The notes under the pieces were generated by a model. The model did not search any database. It was not told the origin of the DNA and saw only the letters and a list, made by a program, of their open reading frames with translations. Shown here in pieces: positions 1,665-20,971 of a stretch of DNA of 44,340 nucleotides; within the stretch, counting starts at the first letter, position 1; each line of letters begins with the position of its first letter. The stretch comes from Candidatus Fermentithermobacillaceae bacterium. GTDB lineage: Bacteria > Bacillota > Sulfobacillia > Fermentithermobacillales > Fermentithermobacillaceae. The stretch is taken from positions 1-44,340 of the forward strand of contig JAGPNG010000014.1 of the NCBI GenBank assembly GCA_018052475.1. The letters run 5' to 3'. The position numbers and the translations under genes were made by a program.

Positions 1665-2546
1665 ATGGCTGACCTCAACTTCGTGAGTTACGATTCGATC
1701 AATAAGGGATGGTCAAGCGATAAAAAATACTGTGTTACAGATATACATGGCACACGGTATCTATTACGCATTTCACCTCCGGATCAATTCAGCAAGAAAG
1801 AATCAGAGTTCAAAATGATGCAACAAATATACCTCTTGGGTGTACCAATGTGTAGGCCCATTGAATTTGGCACCTGCAAGGGAAGCGTCTATTCTATACA
1901 AAGTTGGATCGAAGGCAAAGACGCAGAGGCCGTTATCCCAACTCTTTCTGATGCTAAGATCTATATGTACGGCCTCGAAGCTGGCCGGATTCTCAGACTC
2001 ATACATTCCATTCCTGCTCCCACAGGTTGGCAGGATTGGGAAACTCGCTTTAACAAAAAGATCGATCGCAACATAAAAGACTACGCCAATTGTCCGATCA
2101 AACACGATGCCGGCTATATATTTGTTGAATACATAGATTCCCACAGAGACTTGCTGAAGAACCGACCGCAAGTGTATCAGCATGGCGATTATCACATTGG
2201 CAATATGATGATAGACAATATGGGTCAGCTCAACATCATAGATTTTGATCGCAATGATTATGGCGATCCGTGGGAAGAGTTCAACCGTATCGTGTGGTCT
2301 GTACAGATCTCACCAATATTTGCTTCTGGAATTGTAAACGGCTATTTTGACGGAAATGTGCCGGTGATGTTTTGGAAGCTGCTCGCTCTTTATATATCAA
2401 GTAATGCTCTTTCTTCACTTCCATGGGCAATTCCATTCGGCCACAGCGAAATTGATGTGATGTTGAACCAGGCAAAACAAGTTCTTGAATGGTACGATTA
2501 TATGCAAAGCCCGATTCCTACGTGGTATCTGGATCCTTCTAGGTAA
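1665..2546 (+). CDS. Aminoglycoside phosphotransferase (APH)-like kinase
   Basis: A 293-residue protein with the APH/choline-kinase catalytic signature. The Brenner-type motif HGDYHIGN starts at H173, with D175 as catalytic base and N180 as metal ligand, and IDFD follows at about residue 192, with D193 as the second metal ligand. The N-terminal lobe (about 1-95) contains the RYLLRISPP strand and the IQSWIEG hinge. Family members phosphorylate hydroxyls on antibiotics, choline, homoserine or sugars, and the substrate cannot be told from the sequence. The start ATG follows AAAGGAGAGCGACG. It stands alone, convergent with the minus-strand cassette whose terminator lies just after it, so it may be a recent insertion next to the cassette. 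Confidence 0.8.
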   Translation: MADLNFVSYDSINKGWSSDKKYCVTDIHGTRYLLRISPPDQFSKKESEFKMMQQIYLLGVPMCRPIEFGTCKGSVYSIQSWIEGKDAEAVIPTLSDAKIYMYGLEAGRILRLIHSIPAPTGWQDWETRFNKKIDRNIKDYANCPIKHDAGYIFVEYIDSHRDLLKNRPQVYQHGDYHIGNMMIDNMGQLNIIDFDRNDYGDPWEEFNRIVWSVQISPIFASGIVNGYFDGNVPVMFWKLLALYISSNALSSLPWAIPFGHSEIDVMLNQAKQVLEWYDYMQSPIPTWYLDPSR

Positions 2547-2596
2547 GGGATAACTATCTATTTGGAGTAACACGCCGTGCCTTATGAGACGAAAAG

Positions 2597-2632
2597 GCTC
2601 ACCAGGCCCCATTTTTGGCGAACCTGGTGAGC
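2597..2632 (-). terminator. Rho-independent terminator of the minus-strand cassette
   Basis: GCTCACCAGG (2597-2606) and CCTGGTGAGC (2623-2632) form a perfect 10-bp stem. Read on the minus strand the stem is followed by CTTTTCG, giving a short U-tract. It lies 21 bases past the stop of the 2653-4164 gene. There is no T-run on the plus side, so it mainly serves the minus strand. Confidence 0.75.
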
Positions 2633-2652: not shown

Positions 2653-4164
2653 CTATTCCGGTTCACGGTCAACGAAGCCGGTTTCCTTTCCCACCTTGTC
2701 CACCACAGCCTCTTTGACGGATTCCTCGATCTTACTCACGCCGCCCTCTCTTACAGTAGTGCGAACCACACCCTTGGTTAGAGGGTTATTGTTGAGTACC
2801 TTGCTAACAGAGTATTCGCCTAGTTCTGTGGATGAGCCTTTCGGCATTGGAATTGCGTCCTTCAGTGCATCTAATCTATTATCTGCGTAGGAACTGAATA
2901 CGCCTTTTGTAAGACCTTTCCCCATGGCATCGCGAATACCATCTGCATCTTTGCCTTTGATAGAGGCATCGAGACCTCCCTGTAATCCTTCGTTCAGGAT
3001 GTCTGCAGCTGCTGCATGCCAGGGCAGTTTTTCGTCTCCTCCGGTCAATTTCTCTTTAAGTACTTCAGTTCCGGCATTCAGAATACCTTTTGCAAGGTGT
3101 TTCGTAGCATTTTTGGGGTCAGCCATACCTTCGCCCATTCCCGAGGCGACGCTCTTTCCAGCGGTGTATGCAAGTTTGATCTGCTCGCCCGTTGGGCCAG
3201 TTACCGCAGCTAATCCTTCAATGGCGATGTCAGCGCCGAACTGAACGCCTTCGGCTGCTTTCTCCGCAATCTCGAAGCGGTCACCGCGTGCCATCTGTTC
3301 CTTGAATTCCTTAATATTCTGCTCCATCTGCGCGTCGAGCTCTTTGCGCTTCTCTTCATCTGCGGCTTTCTTTTCCGCCTCAATTCTCTTCTTTTCAGCT
3401 CGGATCTTCTCATTGAGTTCCTTGGCGTCCTGAGAAGGACCAATAGAGCCTCGATCGACTGGTTTGTACTCTATAGATGCGTTGTTCTCAGAAAGGATGT
3501 TTGCTATCTCTTTTTCTCTTTCTGAGAGCTGTTGGAGCCGCGTCTTGACAGCGGACGTATCGTAGCCAGGTAGGTTATAACCCTTGGCGACCGCTTCAAG
3601 CATTGCTTTTTCTTCTTTTACTGCTATTAGGTCGGTTTGTTGCTGTCTGATCCACTCATTCCTGCTCTCTATTTGGGCCTTAATTTGCGCCTGTTCATAC
3701 TCGACCATCTGTTTCTGATAATCAGCTTGTTGAATCTGGGTATTCAGATAGTTCATATAATCTTCGTACTGTTTTTTTAATTCAGCATATCCGGGATCTG
3801 TCTTATCAGCTGTCCTTTCGGATTCTTCCCATAACCGTTTAGTCTCTTCAAGTTCGTGCTCGAGTGTAGAATGGGCTTGGGCAAGGGCGTTTTCAGCTTC
3901 CGAATAGGCACCTTTTACGAACTCTTCCTGCCGCTTTGCATCTGCTTCAACCGCTGCTGCGATTTGTTGGGCCATTGCTGACGTGTCCACGATAGTGCTG
4001 TGAATTTGTTCTTTGGCGAGGACTTCGGTCTCGGCAGAGATCTGACAGCCCTCGAACAATGTCAATAGGCCTGCGAGAAGCAAACCTACAATTCCAGAGT
4101 CTTGTAACACTATTCCGAATATCTCGCTTGACGAATTCGTGACGTAATCAACCTTGATTTTCAT
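2653..4164 (-). CDS. VTNSSS-motif membrane-anchored coiled-coil protein
   Basis: From the ATG at 4164 the product is 503 residues and begins MKIKVDYVTNSSSE. I recall near-identical N-termini (DFVTNSSSSSF) on otherwise unrelated hypothetical bacterial proteins. A longer reading to 4224 is open, but AAAGGATGGCGG lies 6-12 bases before the 4164 ATG, and only that start places the motif at the N-terminus. Residues 16-38 are hydrophobic (one membrane segment, with a Cys just after it). About 55-285 is Glu/Lys/Gln-rich predicted coiled coil with long helices. From about 290 to the end lies a Gly/Ala-rich domain (AVTGPTGEQIKLAYTAGK, GMGEGMADP, LTKGVFSSYADN) resembling scaffold regions of secreted or polymorphic-toxin-like proteins. 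It is last in the cassette, 60 bases after the radical SAM gene. The function is unknown; it may be the substrate of that enzyme. Confidence 0.6.
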   Translation of the reverse strand: MKIKVDYVTNSSSEIFGIVLQDSGIVGLLLAGLLTLFEGCQISAETEVLAKEQIHSTIVDTSAMAQQIAAAVEADAKRQEEFVKGAYSEAENALAQAHSTLEHELEETKRLWEESERTADKTDPGYAELKKQYEDYMNYLNTQIQQADYQKQMVEYEQAQIKAQIESRNEWIRQQQTDLIAVKEEKAMLEAVAKGYNLPGYDTSAVKTRLQQLSEREKEIANILSENNASIEYKPVDRGSIGPSQDAKELNEKIRAEKKRIEAEKKAADEEKRKELDAQMEQNIKEFKEQMARGDRFEIAEKAAEGVQFGADIAIEGLAAVTGPTGEQIKLAYTAGKSVASGMGEGMADPKNATKHLAKGILNAGTEVLKEKLTGGDEKLPWHAAAADILNEGLQGGLDASIKGKDADGIRDAMGKGLTKGVFSSYADNRLDALKDAIPMPKGSSTELGEYSVSKVLNNNPLTKGVVRTTVREGGVSKIEESVKEAVVDKVGKETGFVDREPE

Positions 4165-4224
4165 ATCTACCGCCATCCTTTCACAGAATACGGGAAATCC
4201 TAACCGACTTGAAATTAGACGCAA

Positions 4225-5298
4225 CTAGACACTTCGATATCGGCTGTTACACAGGGTTATTTCAGGAGCCACTGGACAGCCCCCAAAACACGAAGCACGC
4301 CTGGGGCAGTCTGGACATCGTTCTGAAAGGCGGCTACGGAACGCATGGAATTGTCCGCTGTTCCATGCGCCCTCGATACCAAGGCCTCTGAGACTCACGC
4401 CGAAGTTAGGATCTTTTTCAAAGCTGCAAGGATACAATCGGAAATCTGGAGATATATAGGCAGAGAAACGTCCTGCCTCGCAGGCTTCCATGCACATTGG
4501 ATGTATGTTGCGAGAGAATTCTAGCAGGGCGGGGACGCTGCAACTGTCAAAACCAGCTTTATCGGCATTTTCAGGAAGGTTAAAGAGCGAAAAGAAATGC
4601 CTGACTCGCGGGTCATCGACTTGAAGGACCTGTTTTTGAGTTCCTAGGCCCACTGGCTTGTGAAGAAGAAAGATTATTCGGTTAATGCCCTGAGGGTATT
4701 TCTTTTCTTCTACCATCTCAATGGCTTCATCTATAGTTGCGTTAGACAGACAAAAATGGATATTTGTTCGTATGCCTGCGCTTAAGAACAAGTCTATTGC
4801 CCTATTGGTGTATTCACTACGGTACCAGCTTACCGCAACGGCGCCGCAATATTCCTTGATATAAGGCATGAGGCGCTCCTCTAGTCCAAAGCCGGAAGTA
4901 GTAAAATTCGGGACGACACCGTTATCTCTGGCATATTCGATAATTCGGAGGAAATCTTCATGCATTTCGGGGTCTCCACGGCCTCCGAGGGCAATTTGGA
5001 ATGTTCTTCCGCGACATTCGTCGATTATGGCTTGAAAATCTTCGAAAGGCATGTTCGGTTCGCTAAGGTTTAAGCCGTCTTGGTAACACTCAACACCCGA
5101 CTGAAGGCATAGTCCGGTTTGCCCGTGTATACAATGGCCCATGATCCCTATGTCAAGAAGTTCAGGGAAACTGCCCATAAACGGGTCTAGGCCTGTGTCT
5201 TTGCCATCTGCGTCATAGACGTTAGAGCGGATACCTCTCCCTGTATCCGGGTCAAATACCGACATATACCGATATTTCTCATCCCTTATGATTATCAT
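4225..5298 (-). CDS. Radical SAM/SPASM protein with CX7CX6C motif
   Basis: A 357-residue protein. The cluster region reads GHCIHGQTGLC then LQSGVECYQDG, with cysteines at 56, 64 and 71. The spacing is CX7CX6C instead of the usual CX3CX2C, although the final Cys-Tyr-Gln resembles the end of a normal motif. A glycine-rich ALGGRGDPEMHEDF segment (the SAM-binding GGE-like strand) and repeated beta/alpha units follow. The C-terminal 90 residues are SPASM-like: MCMEAC, then SPDFRLYPC, then CPDCPRRASCFGGC, giving auxiliary Fe-S ligands. SPASM enzymes usually modify peptides or proteins. The ATG overlaps the stop of the upstream membrane-protein gene (ATGA), so the two are translationally coupled, and the VTNSSS protein follows. 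The probable role is modification of that protein (inferred). Confidence 0.75.
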   Translation of the reverse strand: MIIIRDEKYRYMSVFDPDTGRGIRSNVYDADGKDTGLDPFMGSFPELLDIGIMGHCIHGQTGLCLQSGVECYQDGLNLSEPNMPFEDFQAIIDECRGRTFQIALGGRGDPEMHEDFLRIIEYARDNGVVPNFTTSGFGLEERLMPYIKEYCGAVAVSWYRSEYTNRAIDLFLSAGIRTNIHFCLSNATIDEAIEMVEEKKYPQGINRIIFLLHKPVGLGTQKQVLQVDDPRVRHFFSLFNLPENADKAGFDSCSVPALLEFSRNIHPMCMEACEAGRFSAYISPDFRLYPCSFEKDPNFGVSLRGLGIEGAWNSGQFHAFRSRLSERCPDCPRRASCFGGCPVAPEITLCNSRYRSV

Positions 5299-6128
5299 GT
5301 GCTTTCCAATCGCGCTCCTTGGGGTATGAAGAGAGTTACGATAGCGGCTACGATAAGAGCTACGCCTAATCCATATCCGCCATATTTAGAGTGCATCAGT
5401 ATCAGAGGAGCATCTAGTAGAAGACCTGCGACAAAACCAGACAGAAGGATGTAGAGAGAGTCGTCGGAGTAGTTGATTCTGATCTTGAACGTCCTTGAAA
5501 TGTCAGATGCGGCGAGACGGCTAAACTTGAAGATCCAGTGCTTGCGACCTTCTCCGAGTAGATAGGTGACTGTGAAAGAGATGAGTAGGCAAACGAAATA
5601 CTTATCGATTTTGTTCCTGGCCCCGGAAAACCTACTGTAACTGGCGAAATTGTTCGCGACGACCAGTCCTATGCCGCCACCTAAAAGGAGGTAGAAGTAT
5701 GCTTTCTTCGAAAGACGTTCAAAAGTGTGCTTAAATCCAGGAACAAAAGCCGTAATTGGCTCGAGGGCTTGGGTTAGGCCGACGTCGCTTATGCGTTGGA
5801 CTAGTTTCTTGCCAAAGGTGAAGATAATGACCCAGTAGATCGTCTTTGGAATCACGTCGTTGTACGTGGCTGTAAGGAAGATTACAGGCGTCTTGATGAA
5901 TTTCGGAATATACTTTGCGATGGTGTCCCACCAAAACACGAGTTGAATGAGAATCACGATGCCAATTTGCATCAAAAGGGTCGTAAGCATCTGCGGAAGG
6001 CTATGAGCGCCTGTTTTGCCAAGTTCAAGAAGCCATGAGAAAAGTGTTTCCTGGGGGAGTTCTTCCTTTTCGGGTAGTTGCTGTTCACCGGTCTCCGGGA
6101 CTTCTGCGAGAGCACTGTTGCTTGTCAT
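5295..6128 (-). CDS. Polytopic membrane protein of the rSAM/VTNSSS cassette
   Basis: A 277-residue protein with a polar, Glu/Pro-rich N-terminus (about 40 residues) followed by about six hydrophobic segments, including LMQIGIVILIQLVFWW, AYFYLLLGGGIGLVVANN, YFVCLLISFTVTYLLG and GVALIVAAIVTLFIP. No family was recognised. I chose ATG 6128, which has AGAGGTG eight bases upstream, over GTG 6137. It is the first gene of the minus-strand cassette and its stop overlaps the radical SAM start by four bases, so co-expression is strongly indicated. A role in membrane display or export of the cassette product is possible but is inference. No ATP-binding or peptidase motif is present. Confidence 0.6.
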   Translation of the reverse strand: MTSNSALAEVPETGEQQLPEKEELPQETLFSWLLELGKTGAHSLPQMLTTLLMQIGIVILIQLVFWWDTIAKYIPKFIKTPVIFLTATYNDVIPKTIYWVIIFTFGKKLVQRISDVGLTQALEPITAFVPGFKHTFERLSKKAYFYLLLGGGIGLVVANNFASYSRFSGARNKIDKYFVCLLISFTVTYLLGEGRKHWIFKFSRLAASDISRTFKIRINYSDDSLYILLSGFVAGLLLDAPLILMHSKYGGYGLGVALIVAAIVTLFIPQGARLEST

Positions 6129-13459: not shown

Positions 13460-13564
13460 ATGTTGGTACAGAGTGTGGTTGATTTGAAGTTTGTGCTTAT
13501 CCCGAATACTAGATTTGTGCATCCAGGTTGTTTCAGGTTTGGAGGGTTGAACCAGGCGAAATGA
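13460..13564 (+). CDS. Possible small leader ORF coupled to the hydrogenase-like gene
   Basis: A 34-codon frame beginning MLVQSVVDLKFVLIP, whose TGA overlaps the ATG of the next gene (ATGA at 13561-13564). Its first residues resemble the start of the DRTGG protein encoded at 15363 (MLVEDLVSKFDL), so it could be a truncated paralogue. GGGTGGG lies upstream as a weak ribosome binding site. It may equally be chance, or serve only for translational coupling. Confidence 0.3.
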   Translation: MLVQSVVDLKFVLIPNTRFVHPGCFRFGGLNQAK

Positions 13565-15348
13565 CCGTATTTGCACCCGGAAGGCTAGTATATGAATATG
13601 AAATAAAGCAGGGCGATTTCAGCGCCGTCGCTGAGGAAACTTCTAAATTGAAGAGGGCCTTGCTGCACATAGGTTTCCCCGCTGACGCTACTCGATCGGC
13701 ATTAATCGTTTGCTATGAGCTATCTATGAACGTTGTGATCCACGCCGTCAAAGGTATTTGCAAGGTTCTATGGAAAGACGGAAGTCTAGATATAATCGTT
13801 GACGATGAAGGCCCGGGCATTTCCGATGTGGAATTGGCCATGAAAGAAGGCTATTCCACAGCTCCTGCAAATGTTCGAGAATTAGGGTATGGAGCAGGTA
13901 TGGGATTGCCTAATGCTAGAGCATACTCAGACTCTATGCAGATAGACTCGGTACCAGGCAAAGGTACGCGTGTAGAGTGCAGAATACTCCCCGGTCCACA
14001 GGATATCGTTGGTCTGCCATATTTCCATTCGGTTAGGCTAAGGACAGAATACTGCAAGGGTTGCACGAATTGCATAAAGGGATGTCCTACTGAGGCCATC
14101 CGAGTCAGAAATGGAAAAGCATTTATCCTTGAGGACAGGTGTATTGACTGTGGTGAGTGCATAAGACAGTGCCCTAATCATGCTAAGGTCGCGATTGCCG
14201 ACGAGTGGAGCATCCTCAATAAGTTAGACTATAAAATAGCGTTAGTCGCACCTTCTTTCTACGGGCAGTTCTCAAGAGATATACCTCCTGGGAAAGTTAG
14301 AGCTGCTTTGTGCGTAGAAGGAGGATTTGACGAAGTATTCGATGTTGCAATTGCGGCAGATCTAGTTAGCTCAGTTACAAGAAAATATATTCAAGCAAAG
14401 CCTACCCCTAGACCCTTGATCTCTAGCGCCTGCCCTGCGGTCGTTAGGTTTGTTCAAGTTAAATATCCCTCTCTTATCAAAAACTTGATTCCATGCGAAG
14501 CTCCTATGGAAATTGCTGCGTGGTTAGCCAAAAACAAAGCGCGTGCTGAGCATCCAGAGAGAAGTCCTGCTGCCGTATTCATATCGCCTTGTCCTGCTAA
14601 GATCACTGCTGCGCGGCAACCTGTAGGTAGAAGCCGTTCTGTCGTTGACGGAGTCATATCCATGGTAGACGCCTATGCCTGGGTCCGCCGACATGTTTCA
14701 AGCGTCACAGAGGAAAGGGAGTTTCCTACGTCTACGGGGTATGGTATCGGGTGGGGAAGGTCAGGCGGGGAGATGATGGCTTCAGGACTCAAAGGCTTAG
14801 CTGTAGATGGCATCATGCAGGTTGCGTCGGTCCTTGAAGAAATTGAAAAGGGAGAACTCACGGATATCGATTTTATCGAGGCCCAAGCTTGCATAGGTGG
14901 TTGTGTGGGAGGAGCCCTTACCGTCTCAAACTCGTATGTGGCCAGAACACGGATTAGAGATATGGCCAATGCCTATATGCATCTACCTGTGAATCCAATA
15001 TTGCGCGACGTTTCGGAAGATAATCCAGCCATATGGATGAATTTCGAGATTCGGCCACGTCCCATTTTCAAACTGGATGAAGATGTTGAAGAAGCTCGAA
15101 ACAAACTGCAACTCCTAAAAGAAGTTGAGTCCTCACTTCCTGGGTTAGATTGCGGAGCATGTGGTGCGCCTACATGCAGAGCCCTTGCAGAAGACATAGT
15201 TCTTGGAAGGGGCACGATTTGGGACTGCACTTTTAAACTGAGAGAGAGGCTTGAGATCCTAGCCCAAGAGGTGAAAGATTTAGCAGGCAAAAAGCCTCCT
15301 GCAATGGGACAATCGAACGGGAATCGAATCAAGAAGGAAGAAAGCTAG
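13561..15348 (+). CDS. Anti-sigma-type ATPase fused to sensory [FeFe]-hydrogenase-like protein
   Basis: A 595-residue fusion. Residues 1-145 form an RsbW/SpoIIAB-like HATPase: N-box YELSMNVVIHA, G1 DDEGPGISD, G2 GYGAGMGLPNA. Two [4Fe-4S] ferredoxin motifs follow (YCKGCTNCIKGCP, RCIDCGECIRQCP). Then comes a hydrogenase H-cluster domain with SSACPAVVRF (C291), SPCPAKITA (C344) and ACIGGCVGG (C444, C448). All four cluster ligands are present, but the proton-transfer Cys before C291 is Ala, as reported for HydS-type sensory proteins. The C-terminus carries an Fe-S motif, DCGACGAPTCRALAED plus a later Cys. It is therefore predicted to sense H2 or redox state and act through the ATPase domain. ATG 13561 is chosen; GGAGGG is 15 bases away, so TTG 13528 remains possible. 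It heads the hydrogenase operon. Confidence 0.8.
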   Translation: MTVFAPGRLVYEYEIKQGDFSAVAEETSKLKRALLHIGFPADATRSALIVCYELSMNVVIHAVKGICKVLWKDGSLDIIVDDEGPGISDVELAMKEGYSTAPANVRELGYGAGMGLPNARAYSDSMQIDSVPGKGTRVECRILPGPQDIVGLPYFHSVRLRTEYCKGCTNCIKGCPTEAIRVRNGKAFILEDRCIDCGECIRQCPNHAKVAIADEWSILNKLDYKIALVAPSFYGQFSRDIPPGKVRAALCVEGGFDEVFDVAIAADLVSSVTRKYIQAKPTPRPLISSACPAVVRFVQVKYPSLIKNLIPCEAPMEIAAWLAKNKARAEHPERSPAAVFISPCPAKITAARQPVGRSRSVVDGVISMVDAYAWVRRHVSSVTEEREFPTSTGYGIGWGRSGGEMMASGLKGLAVDGIMQVASVLEEIEKGELTDIDFIEAQACIGGCVGGALTVSNSYVARTRIRDMANAYMHLPVNPILRDVSEDNPAIWMNFEIRPRPIFKLDEDVEEARNKLQLLKEVESSLPGLDCGACGAPTCRALAEDIVLGRGTIWDCTFKLRERLEILAQEVKDLAGKKPPAMGQSNGNRIKKEES

Positions 15349-15362
15349 AAAGGACAGATTCT

Positions 15363-15713
15363 ATGCTGGTAGAAGACTTAGTTTCCAAGTTTGACTTACA
15401 GGTGAAATCCCTGCCGAAAGAAAGTCGCTTTAGAGAGGTAAAGGGCGGGTATGCCGGGGACGTATTGTCCCAAGTGATGGCGAGCGCAAAGCCGGGTTAT
15501 GTTTGGGTTACTGTTCAAACCCATGAGAACATCGTTGCCATTGCAAGCCTTCTTGATTTGGCTTGCATCATCGTGTGCCAGCGAGGGTTGCCGGAGGAAA
15601 CCTGCGAAAGGGCAAGGAGGGAGGGGGTCGCGGTTCTATGGACTGACTGCGGAGTTTTTGAGATGTCGGGCCTTTTGTACCAGACTTTTCGTGAGGCAGG
15701 TTTGAAAGTGTAA
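15363..15713 (+). CDS. DRTGG-domain protein
   Basis: A 116-residue stand-alone DRTGG domain. The family's signature region is represented by FREVKGGYAGDVLSQVM, followed by GYVWVTVQTHENIVAIASL and IIVCQRGLPEETCERARREG, and closing with TDCGVFEMSGLLY. The domain occurs in phosphotransacetylases and CBS proteins, and as small proteins in clostridial hydrogenase operons, where a ligand-binding signalling role is assumed. ATG 15363 follows AAAGGACAGATTCT. It lies 14 bases after the sensory fusion, so it is certainly in the same operon. Its companions (an anti-sigma ATPase and an H-cluster sensor) suggest that it is part of a signalling module rather than of the catalytic enzyme. Confidence 0.75.
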   Translation: MLVEDLVSKFDLQVKSLPKESRFREVKGGYAGDVLSQVMASAKPGYVWVTVQTHENIVAIASLLDLACIIVCQRGLPEETCERARREGVAVLWTDCGVFEMSGLLYQTFREAGLKV

Positions 15714-15813
15714 CAATCTTGTGATGAATTGAGGTTATAATATCCAAGTAGTCCAGAAGGAGCAGATAGCAAAAATGGTCTTAAAGATGCAAGAAGTTGA
15801 GGGAGGCAGAACA

Positions 15814-16338
15814 ATGTCCGACAAAACTGAGCACAAGTGTGATTGTGCACAAGCTTATCAGGATATCGATCGTGTTATCCAGAATAACAAAGGTAACAAA
15901 GGGGCCCTGGTTCAGGTGCTTCACTATGTACAGGAGCGTCTTGGGTACGTACCCAAGGATGTCCAGGTACGAATTGCCGAAACCCTGGGAGTTTCTCTTT
16001 CGGAAGTCTACGGCGTTGTGACTTTTTATTCCTTGTTCAGAGAAAGGCCAAGAGGGAAGTACATTGTATCTTCATGCCAGGGAACTGCTTGTTATGTTCG
16101 TGGAGCTCCGGAGGTTCTAAAGAGATTCGAAGAAGAACTTGGGATAAGCGCCGGAGAATCTACAGATGACAACATGTTTACCGTGGAAGTTGTCAGATGC
16201 ATAGGCGCGTGCGGTTTGGCGCCGGTTGTGACTGTTAACAGCGATACGTATGGAAGGGTCAATCCCGACCAGGTTCCGGATATCTTGGATCTGTATAGAA
16301 AGAAAGATGCCGAGAGCGTAGGTGCGGCAGGTATATAA
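15814..16338 (+). CDS. hndA: NuoE-like [2Fe-2S] subunit of NAD(P)-linked hydrogenase
   Basis: A 174-residue thioredoxin-like ferredoxin of the complex I 24-kDa family. The helical N-domain (GALVQVLHYVQERLGYVP, VSLSEVYGVVTFYSLFRE) is followed by the cluster ligands SCQGTACYVRG and VRCIGACGLAPVV, four cysteines in the normal arrangement. It passes electrons between the flavin subunit and the hydrogenase module. GGGAGGCAGAACA before ATG 15814 decides the start; the open frame upstream to 15775 lacks a site. A TATAAT at 15736 has no matching -35. It has the order NuoE, HATPase, HndB, NuoF, HydA seen in clostridial trimeric and tetrameric hydrogenases. Confidence 0.9.
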   Translation: MSDKTEHKCDCAQAYQDIDRVIQNNKGNKGALVQVLHYVQERLGYVPKDVQVRIAETLGVSLSEVYGVVTFYSLFRERPRGKYIVSSCQGTACYVRGAPEVLKRFEEELGISAGESTDDNMFTVEVVRCIGACGLAPVVTVNSDTYGRVNPDQVPDILDLYRKKDAESVGAAGI

Positions 16339-16392
16339 GGGTAGGGTGAACAGGCTGTATAGTCTTTTGGCACATGGGCGGAGGTGCGTAAG

Positions 16393-16971
16393 GTGGTAGA
16401 CTTATCCTTGCATTTGCTCGATTTGCTCCAAAACAGCGCGCACGCAGGAGCTCGAAATGTAGAGGTGCTGATAGTGGAGAATCTGGAACAGGATCTTTTG
16501 GAGGTTACTGTTTCAGATGACGGCAAAGGCATCACGTCTGATGAGATAGAACGGGTTCTAGATCCGTTTTACACTACATCCACGAAGAAAAAAGTGGGGT
16601 TGGGTCTGCCTCTTGTTGCTCAAGCGGCTATGATGGCGGGTGGGTCACTTCATATCGACAAGAGCGATATGAATGGAACTCGTGTAGTCGTGAAATATAG
16701 GCTCAATCATCCGGATAGGCAGCCCCTAGGAGATATAGTAGCCACCCTCGTTTCATTTTCAGCAGGAAATCCTGAAGTACGTGTAGTGTTTACGTATCGC
16801 GGGCCACAAGGCGAATACAGTCTAGATACAAACAGCATATGGGATGATATCAGCGAGTATGGGCGAAACCAGATCATGTTTCTTTCAAAGTTTGAAGAAG
16901 AACTGACTGAAGGACTTAACTCAGCAGGATATCGTCCGGACAGAGGAGGTTTTGTCTTTGAAATCGATTGA
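16393..16971 (+). CDS. Stand-alone HATPase (histidine-kinase-like) in hydrogenase operon
   Basis: A 192-residue protein. Residues 1-110 carry a GHKL ATP-binding fold: N-box LLDLLQNSAHAGA, G1 VSDDGKGITSDE, an F-box-like DPFYTTSTKK and G2 KVGLGLPLVAQAA. No phospho-acceptor His domain or sensor domain is present. The remaining 80 residues (DIVATLVSFSAGNPEVRV onward) are characteristic of this hydrogenase-linked subfamily. The role is unknown; serine kinase or switch function by analogy to anti-sigma factors is inference. GTG 16393, eight bases after GGAGG, is preferred to GTG 16384. Its 3' end overlaps the next gene by 14 bases, so translation is coupled. Confidence 0.8.
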   Translation: MVDLSLHLLDLLQNSAHAGARNVEVLIVENLEQDLLEVTVSDDGKGITSDEIERVLDPFYTTSTKKKVGLGLPLVAQAAMMAGGSLHIDKSDMNGTRVVVKYRLNHPDRQPLGDIVATLVSFSAGNPEVRVVFTYRGPQGEYSLDTNSIWDDISEYGRNQIMFLSKFEEELTEGLNSAGYRPDRGGFVFEID

Positions 16972-17332
16972 AGAGCTCGAGCGGCTGAAGGACGAAACGC
17001 TTGAAGAAATTCGTCTTCGCTCATCGTCTGGCGGTCCTAGGGTCGTCGTCGGAATGGGGACCTGTGGTATAGCATCGGGTGCCAGGGACACAATGCTTGC
17101 TATAATCGATGAACTCAGAAAGAGAAAGAAGCTCGATGTTACTGTAACCGAGACCGGTTGTATAGGCCTTTGCTCACAAGAACCGATCGTCACAGTTGAG
17201 ATTCCAGGTGAGCCGGAGGTAGTATACGGAAAGGTAGATGCGAACAAAGCCAGGCAGATCGTACTATCGCACTTAATTAATCATCAACCCATAAACGAAT
17301 GGGTTATTAACGTAGAGGAAATGTTGTCATAG
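16958..17332 (+). CDS. hndB: HndB-like thioredoxin-fold ferredoxin
   Basis: A 124-residue protein. An N-terminal helix (KSIEELERLKDETLEEI) precedes VVVGMGTCGIASGARD, and ETGCIGLCSQEPIVTVE follows. Three of the four expected [2Fe-2S] cysteines are present, and the position of the second one reads Ser/Ala, which I recall as usual for HndB-type subunits, so cluster binding is uncertain. It closes with YGKVDANKARQIVLSHLI. It occurs with NuoE- and NuoF-type subunits of NADP-reducing or bifurcating hydrogenases. TTG 16958 is eight bases after GGAGG, and TTG 16952 is too close. The start lies inside the HATPase gene. Confidence 0.8.
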   Translation: MKSIEELERLKDETLEEIRLRSSSGGPRVVVGMGTCGIASGARDTMLAIIDELRKRKKLDVTVTETGCIGLCSQEPIVTVEIPGEPEVVYGKVDANKARQIVLSHLINHQPINEWVINVEEMLS

Positions 17333-17347
17333 GAGAGGAGAGGCCTG

Positions 17348-19138
17348 ATGGATTTTTATAGGAGTCACATTCTTGTGTGTTCAGGTACCGGATGCCATGC
17401 ATCGGGCAGTCTTGTCCTCAAGGAAGCCTTAGAAGCTGAGATAGCTCGCGTAGGACTGGATAAAGAAGTAAAGGTAATAGAGACCGGTTGTTTTGGTTTC
17501 TGCCGCTTGGGTCCTAACATGATGGTTTATCCTGAGGGAGTTTTCTATTGCCAGGTTCATGAGCAGGATGTTCCACAAATTGTAGAAGAACACCTGTTGA
17601 AAGGGCGCGTTGTTGAAAGGCTGCTTTACACAGAGCCTCAGACTGAAAAGTCCGTAGTGGATTTTGAAGATATTCCGTTTTTCCAGAAGCAGACCAGAAT
17701 CGTATTGGAGGATTGCGGGGTAATCAACCCTGAGTCTATAAGAGAGTATATCGCCAGGGATGGGTACTTTGGTCTGGCTAAGGCCCTTCAGATGAAGCCC
17801 GAAGAAGTAATAGATACAGTGAAGAAATCGGGGCTGAGAGGCCGCGGAGGCGCAGGGTTCCCGACAGGATTAAAGTGGGAGTTTGCCGCCAAGGCAGAGG
17901 GCTCTCCAAAATACATTGTCTGCAACGCTGACGAAGGAGACCCAGGTGCTTTTATGGATCGCTCCATTATTGAGGGAGATCCCCACCGGGTGCTCGAAGG
18001 GATTGCTATTGCCGGTTACGCCGTAGGTGCGTCTCAGGGCTATGTATACGTACGGGCAGAGTATCCACTCGCTGTAAGAAGGCTCTACAAAGCTATAGAC
18101 GATGCCCATGAGTTGGGTCTTCTTGGGAAGAACATTCTTAACTCAGGGTTTGATTTTGACATAGATCTTAGGTTGGGTGCCGGTGCTTTCGTTTGTGGTG
18201 AAGAGACTGCCCTTTTGAACTCTATGATGGGTAAAAGAGGAGAGCCTAGGCCCAGACCACCCTTCCCTGCCAACGAAGGGCTGTGGGGCAAACCCACCGT
18301 GATCAATAATGTAGAAACTTTTGCAAATGTTCCGGTCATAATGCGAAAGGGATATGAGTGGTTCAATTCCATTGGGACAGAGAAGTCCAAAGGTACCAAG
18401 GTGTTCGCTTTGGCAGGCAAAATCAACAACAATGGTTTGGCCGAAGTTCCGATGGGTACTACGATTAGAGAGATTGTTTTTGATATAGGCGGAGGACTGC
18501 CAGACGGCAAAGAGTTTAAGGCGGTTCAGACAGGCGGCCCGTCCGGTGGATGTATCCCAGCGCAGTGCCTAGATACCCCTGTTGATTACGAATCTCTTGC
18601 TCAGTTGGGAACTATTATGGGCTCAGGCGGTTTTGTGGTTATGGACCAAAATACCTGCATGGTAGACCTTGCCAAGTTCTTTTTGGAATTTGTTCAGTCT
18701 GAATCGTGCGGCAAATGTGCTCCATGCCGAATCGGCACCAGAAGGATGCTTGAAATACTCGACCGTATTACTAAAGGGGAAGGCAAGGAGGGGGATATCG
18801 AAACCCTCGAGGAACTTGGTCAGTCAATCAAGGAAACTGCGCTATGTGGGTTAGGGCAAACTGCTCCCAATCCTGTGCTTTCGACCATTAGATTCTTCAG
18901 AGACGAATACGAAGCTCATATACATGAAAAAAGGTGTCCTGCCGGTGTCTGTCAGGCCTTGCTTTCCTATCGTATTAACCCAGATAAGTGTAAAGGTTGC
19001 AGTCTGTGCGCTAAGAACTGCCCTGTCAATGCAATTAGCGGCGAAGCAAGGAAACCTTTCACGATTGACCCCGAAGCTTGCATAAAATGCGGCACCTGTT
19101 TTGAAAAGTGTCCATTTGGCGCAATAGAGAAGGTTTAA
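17348..19138 (+). CDS. hndC: NuoF-like flavin subunit of NAD(P)-linked hydrogenase
   Basis: A 596-residue protein. Residues 1-90 form a thioredoxin-like [2Fe-2S] domain (C11, C16, C48, C52). The complex I 51-kDa core follows: [16 protein letters not shown] (about 162-177) for [22 protein letters not shown] (about 192-206) for FMN and [20 protein letters not shown]. An SLBB domain precedes the N3-type [4Fe-4S] site [12 protein letters not shown] (C454, C457, C460, plus a later Cys in ALCGLGQ). Two C-terminal ferredoxin motifs close it ([24 protein letters not shown]). The subunit oxidises or reduces pyridine nucleotide, and in related enzymes it is the bifurcation site. ATG 17348 follows GGAGAGGAGAGGCCTG, 15 bases after the HndB stop. 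Confidence 0.93.
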
Positions 19139-19162
19139 CTTAGATTTGAGGTGGACAAAGAC

Positions 19163-20971
19163 ATGGACAAAGTAAAGGTAACCGTCGATGGCATCACATT
19201 GGAGGTTCCTTCTGACTATACGGTTCTAGAGGCAGCCAAAGAAGCCGGCATAGAGATACCTACGTTGTGTTATTTGAAAGATATTAATGAAATAGGAAGC
19301 TGCCGCGTATGTGTAGTTGAAATAGAAAGGGCAAAATCCCTTCAAGCTTCTTGCGTGACGCCCGTGTCTCCTGGCATGGTCGTTCACACCAACACGCCTA
19401 AAGTGCGTGCGGCGCGGAGGCTTGCAGTTGAGTTGATTCTGTCGGATCACCCGTATGAGTGCGTTACTTGCCCTAGAAATCTCAACTGTGAATTGCAGAG
19501 TCTTGCTGAGCGTCTTGGCATCAGGGAGATTAGATTCGAGAATCACAGGGAAGAAAAGCCTATCGATACATCGACTCCCGCTATAATTCGAGATCCTAAC
19601 AAATGCATACTGTGCAGAAGGTGCGTAGCGGTATGCGAGCAGAACCAGTCAGTGAACGCGATTGGACCATATGGGAGAGGGCTAAGTACACAAATAGGGC
19701 CGGCCTGGGGTGAAGATATGAACAATAGCCCCTGCGTGCAATGCGGCCAATGTACTTTGGTATGCCCGGTCGGTGCTCTTTATGAGAAAGACTACACCGA
19801 AGAGGTGTGGGATGCCTTGTATGATCCCGATAAGGTAGTCATAGTCCAGACGGCCCCTGCTACTAGAGTGTCGATTGGAGAGCCATTTGGACTTCCCCAG
19901 GGCAGCATAAGCACTGGGAAGATGGTTGCAGCTTTGAGGCAGCTTGGATTTGACAAGGTTTTCGATACTAACTTCGCAGCTGACGTTACCATAATGGAAG
20001 AAGGTTCCGAGCTCCTAGATAGGCTGGCAAATGGGGGAGACCTTCCTCTTATAACTTCTTGCAGTCCTGGATGGATCAAGTTCATGGAGGAGTTTTATCC
20101 TGAACTTTCCGGGAACGTGTCTTCCTGCAAATCCCCGCAGCAGATGTTTGGGGCACTAACAAAGACATATTATGCCGAGAAGACAGGCATCGATCCTGCC
20201 AATATGGTAGTAGTATCCATTATGCCTTGCACTGCTAAGAAGTTCGAGTGCCAGAGGCCTGAAATGACTGCATCCGGGTTTCAAGACGTAGATTATGTGC
20301 TTACTGTAAGAGAGCTTGCGAACATGATCAAACAGGCCGGGATAGATTTCAACGATCTTGCTGAAGAGGAGTATGATGATCCCCTAGGTATTTCTACAGG
20401 CGCCGCGGTGATCTTCGGAGCCACAGGCGGAGTCATGGAAGCAGCAGTTAGGACTGCGTATGAGCTTTATACAGGCAAGACTTTGGAGAAAATAGACTTT
20501 GAGATGGTACGCGGGCTTGATGGTGTCAAAGAGGCCTCAGTTGACCTAAATGGAACGGTATTGAACATTGCTGTAGCCAGCGGACTCGGCAATGCCAGGG
20601 TCATATTGGATAGGGTCAAGTCGGGAGAAGCCCAATATCACTTCATCGAGATTATGACCTGCCCAGGCGGGTGCATTGGAGGGGGCGGCCAACCCATTCC
20701 TACTGACCGTGATATTGTAAAGAAGCGTATGGAGGCTATCTACGAGGTAGATAGGAATATGCCTCTACGCAAGTCGCACGAGAATCCGGCAGTGAAAGAG
20801 CTCTATGAAACCTACTTGGGCAAACCGCTGAGCCAGAAGTCTCACCATCTGCTGCACACTACGTATTCGTGGCGTTCGCCGTTCGGAGCAATGGTCTACA
20901 AGGATGACCAAGGCGTTTGGGCTCTTGATAGAGCGGCTCAGGGTGGCAGTGGAAACAAAGGTGATTCCTAA
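19163..20971 (+). CDS. hndD: [FeFe] hydrogenase catalytic subunit
   Basis: A 602-residue HydA of the NAD(P)-linked type. The N-terminal plant-type [2Fe-2S] domain has C36, C47, C50 and C64. The His-ligated cluster uses H96, C100, C103 and C109. Two [4Fe-4S] motifs follow at 148-158 and 191-201. The H-cluster motifs are TSCSPGWIKF (298-307), IMPCTAKKFE (C356) and EIMTCPGGCIGGGGQP (C500, C504). The first motif reads TSCSP where the textbook form is TSCCP, a variant I believe recurs among Hnd-type enzymes. ATG 19163 is ten bases past GAGG; GTG 19151 is too close. It forms the enzyme with the NuoE- and NuoF-like subunits and probably couples NADH, with or without ferredoxin, to proton reduction. 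Confidence 0.93.
   Translation: MDKVKVTVDGITLEVPSDYTVLEAAKEAGIEIPTLCYLKDINEIGSCRVCVVEIERAKSLQASCVTPVSPGMVVHTNTPKVRAARRLAVELILSDHPYECVTCPRNLNCELQSLAERLGIREIRFENHREEKPIDTSTPAIIRDPNKCILCRRCVAVCEQNQSVNAIGPYGRGLSTQIGPAWGEDMNNSPCVQCGQCTLVCPVGALYEKDYTEEVWDALYDPDKVVIVQTAPATRVSIGEPFGLPQGSISTGKMVAALRQLGFDKVFDTNFAADVTIMEEGSELLDRLANGGDLPLITSCSPGWIKFMEEFYPELSGNVSSCKSPQQMFGALTKTYYAEKTGIDPANMVVVSIMPCTAKKFECQRPEMTASGFQDVDYVLTVRELANMIKQAGIDFNDLAEEEYDDPLGISTGAAVIFGATGGVMEAAVRTAYELYTGKTLEKIDFEMVRGLDGVKEASVDLNGTVLNIAVASGLGNARVILDRVKSGEAQYHFIEIMTCPGGCIGGGGQPIPTDRDIVKKRMEAIYEVDRNMPLRKSHENPAVKELYETYLGKPLSQKSHHLLHTTYSWRSPFGAMVYKDDQGVWALDRAAQGGSGNKGDS

Follow-up and report, generated by a model that had tools for sequence, protein, structure and literature searches.

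A radical-SAM enzyme and a short N-terminal tag as a probable two-part protein modification system of bacteria and phages

We describe a three-gene cassette whose radical-SAM (rSAM) enzyme and VTNSSS-tagged protein quite probably belong to a two-part system, in which the enzyme would modify the Asn-Ser-Ser-Ser (NSSS) core of a tag at the start of its partner proteins; the cassette itself would be a membrane version of this system. Beyond the cassette, it appears likely that the two components constitute a general protein-tagging system of bacteria and phages, in which one rSAM enzyme places the same modification on the VTNSSS tag of dozens of unrelated proteins and thereby confers on all of them one property, for example anchoring, protection or the binding of a partner. 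Such a tagging system is apparently undescribed, and no described family for the combination of rSAM enzyme and tag was found among Pfam, NCBIfam, PHROG functions and the open literature. If this reading is correct, a radical-SAM family and many 'hypothetical' proteins of phages, Avs-like defence operons and plasmid STAND loci would gain a testable role, and a portable short tag with its own enzyme would represent a new protein modification, as opposed to the maturation of peptide natural products, and potentially a tool.

The ORF list and a check of the sequence place the genes for the membrane protein, the rSAM enzyme and the tagged coiled-coil protein in series on the minus strand of the window, i.e. 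the whole stretch of 44,340 nucleotides that was analysed, with the following features:

5295-6128, minus strand: polytopic membrane protein of no known family (ORF with its ATG at 6128)
4225-5298, minus strand: SPASM radical-SAM enzyme of the tag-associated family (Pfam SPASM above cut-off)
5086-5133, minus strand: SAM-cluster motif C56-x7-C64-x6-C71 (CX7CX6C) of this enzyme, from an alignment of 37 relatives
4249-4482, minus strand: SPASM domain, C273 to C350, from cysteine conservation in 37 family members
2653-4164, minus strand: tagged coiled-coil protein of 503 amino acids, starting MKIKVDYVTNSSSEIFG (start set by the Shine-Dalgarno sequence; aligned with class A proteins)
4111-4164, minus strand: N-terminal tag MKIKVDYVTNSSSEIFGI, residues 1-18 (consensus from 73 proteins)
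4054-4098, minus strand: hydrophobic segment after the tag, residues 23-37 (mean Kyte-Doolittle value 2.2)
3040-3342, minus strand: C-terminal VTGPxG domain of the coiled-coil protein, also present in large untagged Bacillota proteins
about 2588-2632, minus strand: terminator-like stem-loop past the end of the cassette (predicted 13-bp stem followed by CTTTTC, a weak T run)

The genes for the membrane protein and the rSAM enzyme have an ATGA at 5295-5298 in common, and the tagged gene begins with an ATG at 4164, 60 bases beyond the end of the rSAM gene at 4225. An AAAGGA Shine-Dalgarno sequence is located about 10 nt upstream of this ATG and places the start at the methionine of MKIK, so that the longer starts offered by the ORF are unlikely; the same start arrangement is found in relatives. 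The first-pass annotation had described three genes on one strand, an overlapping ATGA and a third gene 60 bases further on, together with a CX7CX6C motif in the rSAM enzyme and a VTNSSS start of the third product, all of which agrees with the coordinates and the sequence. Past the downstream end of the cassette, the opposite strand carries a phosphotransferase gene of the APH family (window 1665-2546).

The tag comprises about 18 residues of the form MKxRxDFVTNSSSxSF, with the consensus MK[IV][RK]x[DGSC][FYH][VI][TS]NSSSxS[FY][IV] derived from 73 distinct proteins of about 100-510 amino acids. When 22 residues were removed from their N-termini, these proteins fell into 34 body clusters; the tag is the element that they have in common, and the bodies are unrelated. 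Tag positions 7-13 had served as the search pattern by which the 73 proteins were found, and outside of this pattern position 16 is phenylalanine or tyrosine in 73/73, position 4 arginine or lysine in 71/73 and position 1 methionine in 64/73. In an unbiased check, 61 of 83 ORFs that were picked by their first eight residues alone continued with [TS]NSS[ST]. The pattern read backwards, used as a chance control, matched at most one of 398 genomes; this control, the unbiased check and the co-occurrence across genomes given below led us to reject VTNSSS as a chance serine-rich start. A conservation of the tag for reasons of RNA or translation was rejected as well, as synonymous codons vary freely within it: serine codons of the AGY and TCN classes are mixed, and selection therefore acts on the protein. 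No relevant description of the motif was found in the open literature, a scope outside of which bioRxiv and most subscription papers lie.

The tag occurs in 'dialects': the tagged proteins of one record agree at positions 4, 5, 6 and 9 although their bodies differ, and at position 6 the observed homogeneity is 0.95 vs 0.29 after shuffling (reached in 0/2000 shuffles). These dialects fit a single resident enzyme that sets the accepted sequence; common descent of the tag segment or duplication of the tagged genes could contribute in part.

In a sample of 398 Bacillota genomes from all parts of the phylum, ten contain the tag, and all ten carry the rSAM gene nearby. The rSAM profile matched 11 of the 398, namely the ten tag-bearing genomes and, weakly, G351, which we rejected as an exception since its match is a different radical-SAM protein that does not possess the signature residues of the family. 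In a set of 101 relatives, nine genomes possess the rSAM enzyme, and a separate search for the tag returned eight genomes, all of them rSAM-positive; in these eight a protein starting with MKxRx[D/G]F[VI]TNSSS is encoded next to the rSAM gene, and in the ninth, G020, the rSAM gene is divided between contig ends. The lack of a conserved neighbourhood in other genomes had been put forward earlier as a refutation of the proposal; such a neighbourhood is present in both samples (10/10 and 8/8). Altogether, this rSAM family is found in 17 of 17 distinct tag-bearing genomes (Fisher p = 4e-19 for the Bacillota and 4e-11 for the relatives). Similarly, the seven alphaproteobacterial plasmid records with the rSAM gene are the same seven that encode a tagged protein, which in the records inspected adjoins a SMEK-NACHT STAND protein.

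The viral contigs yielded 41 rSAM loci once an alignment-based profile was used, a single-sequence scan having matched nothing, and in 22 of them the fetched stretch encodes tagged proteins. Tandem arrays of tagged proteins occur beside one rSAM gene, with six members in L060, at least four in L064, L087 and L088, and three in L063 and L078; further tags were found by whole-record scans in L079 and L096. At the 28 loci that were parsed, all tagged genes printed lie on the strand of the rSAM gene. About a dozen rSAM-bearing viral fragments have no tag; these are mostly short, but L086, of a divergent branch, is 131 kb long. The T4-like phage Miller encodes two tagged proteins, with the rSAM gene about 20 kb away (whole-record scan), and among T4-like phages the rSAM gene is present in 172 records and the two different Miller-type tagged proteins in 175 and 174 records, respectively; rSAM and tagged-protein records have near-identical host lists, a comparison that is confined to one phage clade in which tag and rSAM genes are about 20 kb apart. 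Carriers of the tag thus include proteins of more than 170 sequenced T4-like phages of Klebsiella, Enterobacter, Citrobacter and E. coli. PHROG 7293 corresponds to the T4-like phage branch of the rSAM enzyme and PHROG 7397 to one tagged phage protein, which other tagged proteins match mostly across its first 17-35 residues; PHROG assigns neither a function nor a link between the two. In L097, the body of a tagged phage protein (1071-1538) matches PHROG 132, a head-tail adaptor (E 1e-10), and its gene is close to one for a von Willebrand A protein.

That unrelated phage proteins have an N-terminus in common, and that the class A proteins, to which the window protein belongs, are hydrophobic past the tag, would also be expected if the tag were a localisation or packaging signal, comparable to the N-termini that direct T4 internal proteins to the capsid, with the rSAM enzyme as an unrelated neighbour or other regulator. 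We regard this as very improbable: the tag also occurs in contexts other than phages, and the presence of the rSAM family in every distinct tag-bearing genome would not arise if the functions of tag and enzyme were unlinked.

The enzyme of the window scores above the cut-offs for the SPASM domain (PF13186, 24.6 bits vs 21.5; TIGR04085, 31.1 vs 27), and among the rSAM maturase families named in NCBIfam (mycofactocin, PqqE, NirJ, tungsten maturase and others) the highest score was 39.6 bits, with cut-offs at 265-380. Its SAM-cluster motif is CX7CX6C instead of the canonical CX3CX2C, which is found in 16 of 37 family members. The three cysteines are kept in 37/37, with spacings of CX3CX2C, CX7CX6C, CX7CX8C and CX19CX2C; on the basis of this alignment, the window enzyme is taken to be a spacing variant within a family in which the canonical form also occurs. 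Such variable spacing inside one family is unusual. Further cysteines are conserved at C253, C273, C291 and C331 in 37/37 members, at C328 in 31/37 and at C337, C341 and C350 in 27-28/37, and the clade of the window enzyme is strongly supported in the tree. The structure model (pLDDT 94) has a radical-SAM/SPASM fold, with Z scores of 20-25 to SuiB, SkfB, PqqE and anSME; the nearest solved structures are those of SuiB, SkfB, PqqE, CteB and anSME, so that, by the model, most of the solved enzymes closest to it are SPASM enzymes that modify peptides or proteins.

Like SuiB, SkfB, CteB and PqqE, which it resembles in predicted fold (Z 25 to SuiB, 24 to SkfB, 21 to PqqE), the window enzyme possesses auxiliary-cluster cysteines and is encoded next to its putative substrate, and as in RiPP loci this putative precursor has a conserved N-terminus. 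Unlike in these systems, the putative substrates are whole proteins with a common N-terminal tag, the spacing is CX7CX6C, and none of the curated family models reaches its cut-off. The top Foldseek match to the model is anSME, likewise a SPASM enzyme, which modifies a serine or cysteine of a large protein; its target is an internal sulfatase motif of the CxPxR type, whereas here an N-terminal NSSS tag without CxPxR is concerned. One maturase serving several tandem precursors with a common N-terminal sequence is also familiar from the Nif11, nitrile-hydratase leader and prochlorosin systems, but in the present case conservation is limited to a short stretch that itself resembles the site of modification, and the bodies are full proteins.

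Alternatively, the tag could be a docking leader only, as in RiPPs, with the rSAM enzyme modifying residues of the body and the tag perhaps being removed later. Many SPASM enzymes use N-terminal leaders, and the alignment of the rSAM model with SuiB, the N-terminus of which is a leader-binding domain, begins at residue 1. Past the tag, however, the unrelated bodies offer no conserved site, the NSSS core is conserved far beyond what a leader would need, and no recurrent protease family occurs among the neighbours; we therefore consider a mere docking function improbable. As the bodies are unrelated, the modified site is rather expected inside the tag. The proposal of the first-pass annotation that the VTNSSS protein, or its N-terminus, is the substrate of the rSAM enzyme receives strong, sequence-based support from co-occurrence, adjacency, tandem arrays and dialects, and the tag is very probably the substrate of the enzyme, while the NSSS core would be its probable site of modification. 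In the proposed mechanism, a newly made tagged protein would be recognised by its start MKxRx[D/G]F, which is basic and beta-prone, and the enzyme would direct 5'-deoxyadenosyl-radical chemistry at the Asn-Ser-Ser-Ser core, which is invariant and flanked by two conserved aromatic residues. Either a cross-link to one of these rings (F7 or F16) or the oxidation of a serine could result. In the window cassette, the modified coiled-coil protein would then be retained or displayed at the membrane by its hydrophobic segment and the polytopic protein.

Several associations point to such a membrane sub-type. The eleven highest post-tag hydrophobicities among the 73 tagged proteins are exactly those of the class A proteins, nine of which were aligned and are 26-74% identical to the window protein, and in class A genomes the membrane gene co-occurs with the hydrophobic segment. 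Strong matches to the membrane protein family were obtained in five of 398 Bacillota genomes, which are all five class A genomes with rSAM enzyme and tag; two further, weak matches lie in larger multidomain proteins, and the membrane protein of G028 is divergent yet detectable. The AlphaFold model of the window membrane protein is all-helical (pLDDT 70) and matches no PDB fold at E<=0.001; for this protein and the coiled-coil body, no known family or fold was found in Pfam, PDB sequences and PDB folds. Other Bacillota encode large proteins that contain the VTGP domain but no tag, and G259 encodes a natural fusion of 773 amino acids (L141:1249-3567) in which the membrane and VTGP domains are combined with a double zinc ribbon. 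Since this protein joins both domains, it suggests that the products of the first and third genes work together. It is thus fairly probable that class A proteins are held at the membrane with the polytopic partner, a role that is deduced from association and one fusion. A function of the polytopic protein in display or export, as proposed earlier, is indirectly supported by its restriction to class A, the hydrophobic segment and the fusion; as a general partner of the system it was rejected, being absent from class B bacterial loci and phages.

With respect to purpose, the cassette might also be a secretion module, in which the coiled-coil protein would be exported by an EspG-like chaperone together with the membrane protein, with modification by the rSAM enzyme as a licensing step. 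This reading overlaps with that of an rSAM-modified tag. It draws on a fourth gene beside the tagged gene in six relatives (G041, G061, G271, G282, G376 and G379), the product of which is EspG-like in L041 (E 9e-6; 25.9 bits, slightly short of the Pfam cut-off of 27), and on PAAR motifs in one tagged body. In contrast, no match to the fourth gene was obtained beside the cassette in the window genome and four close relatives, a search run without a positive control, the gene that follows the tagged gene in L019 (12328-13284) did not match EspG, and none of the genes found next to the cassette encodes a secretion ATPase. We thus view a secretion module as possible but rather unlikely.

In two class B Bacillota loci other than the window (L036:5489-11343 and L037:5552-11548), genes for an MBL protein and a trypsin-STAND NTPase are followed by those for a small protein, a tagged protein and the rSAM enzyme; with LmuA/Avs1a-like and Avs2/Avs1b-like matches, they resemble Avs-type STAND defence operons to which a radical-SAM enzyme has been joined. 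In several plasmids and viral contigs (L004, L005, L007, L074, L080 and L095), a SMEK-domain NACHT/STAND-type protein adjoins a VSNSSS-tagged protein of 131-132 amino acids and the rSAM enzyme. Judged by eye, tag and rSAM genes lie among genes resembling those of periplasmic-binding-protein ABC transporters in L035, L038 and L039, and in the latter two the tagged protein ends in a cysteine-containing tail, CERGGCKV. As the tag system is found with both Avs-like loci and ABC transporter-like genes, it is reused in different settings. Elsewhere in the window, positions 13528-20971 harbor, as judged by eye, a gene set resembling that of an electron-bifurcating [FeFe] hydrogenase, with an anti-sigma-like ATPase.
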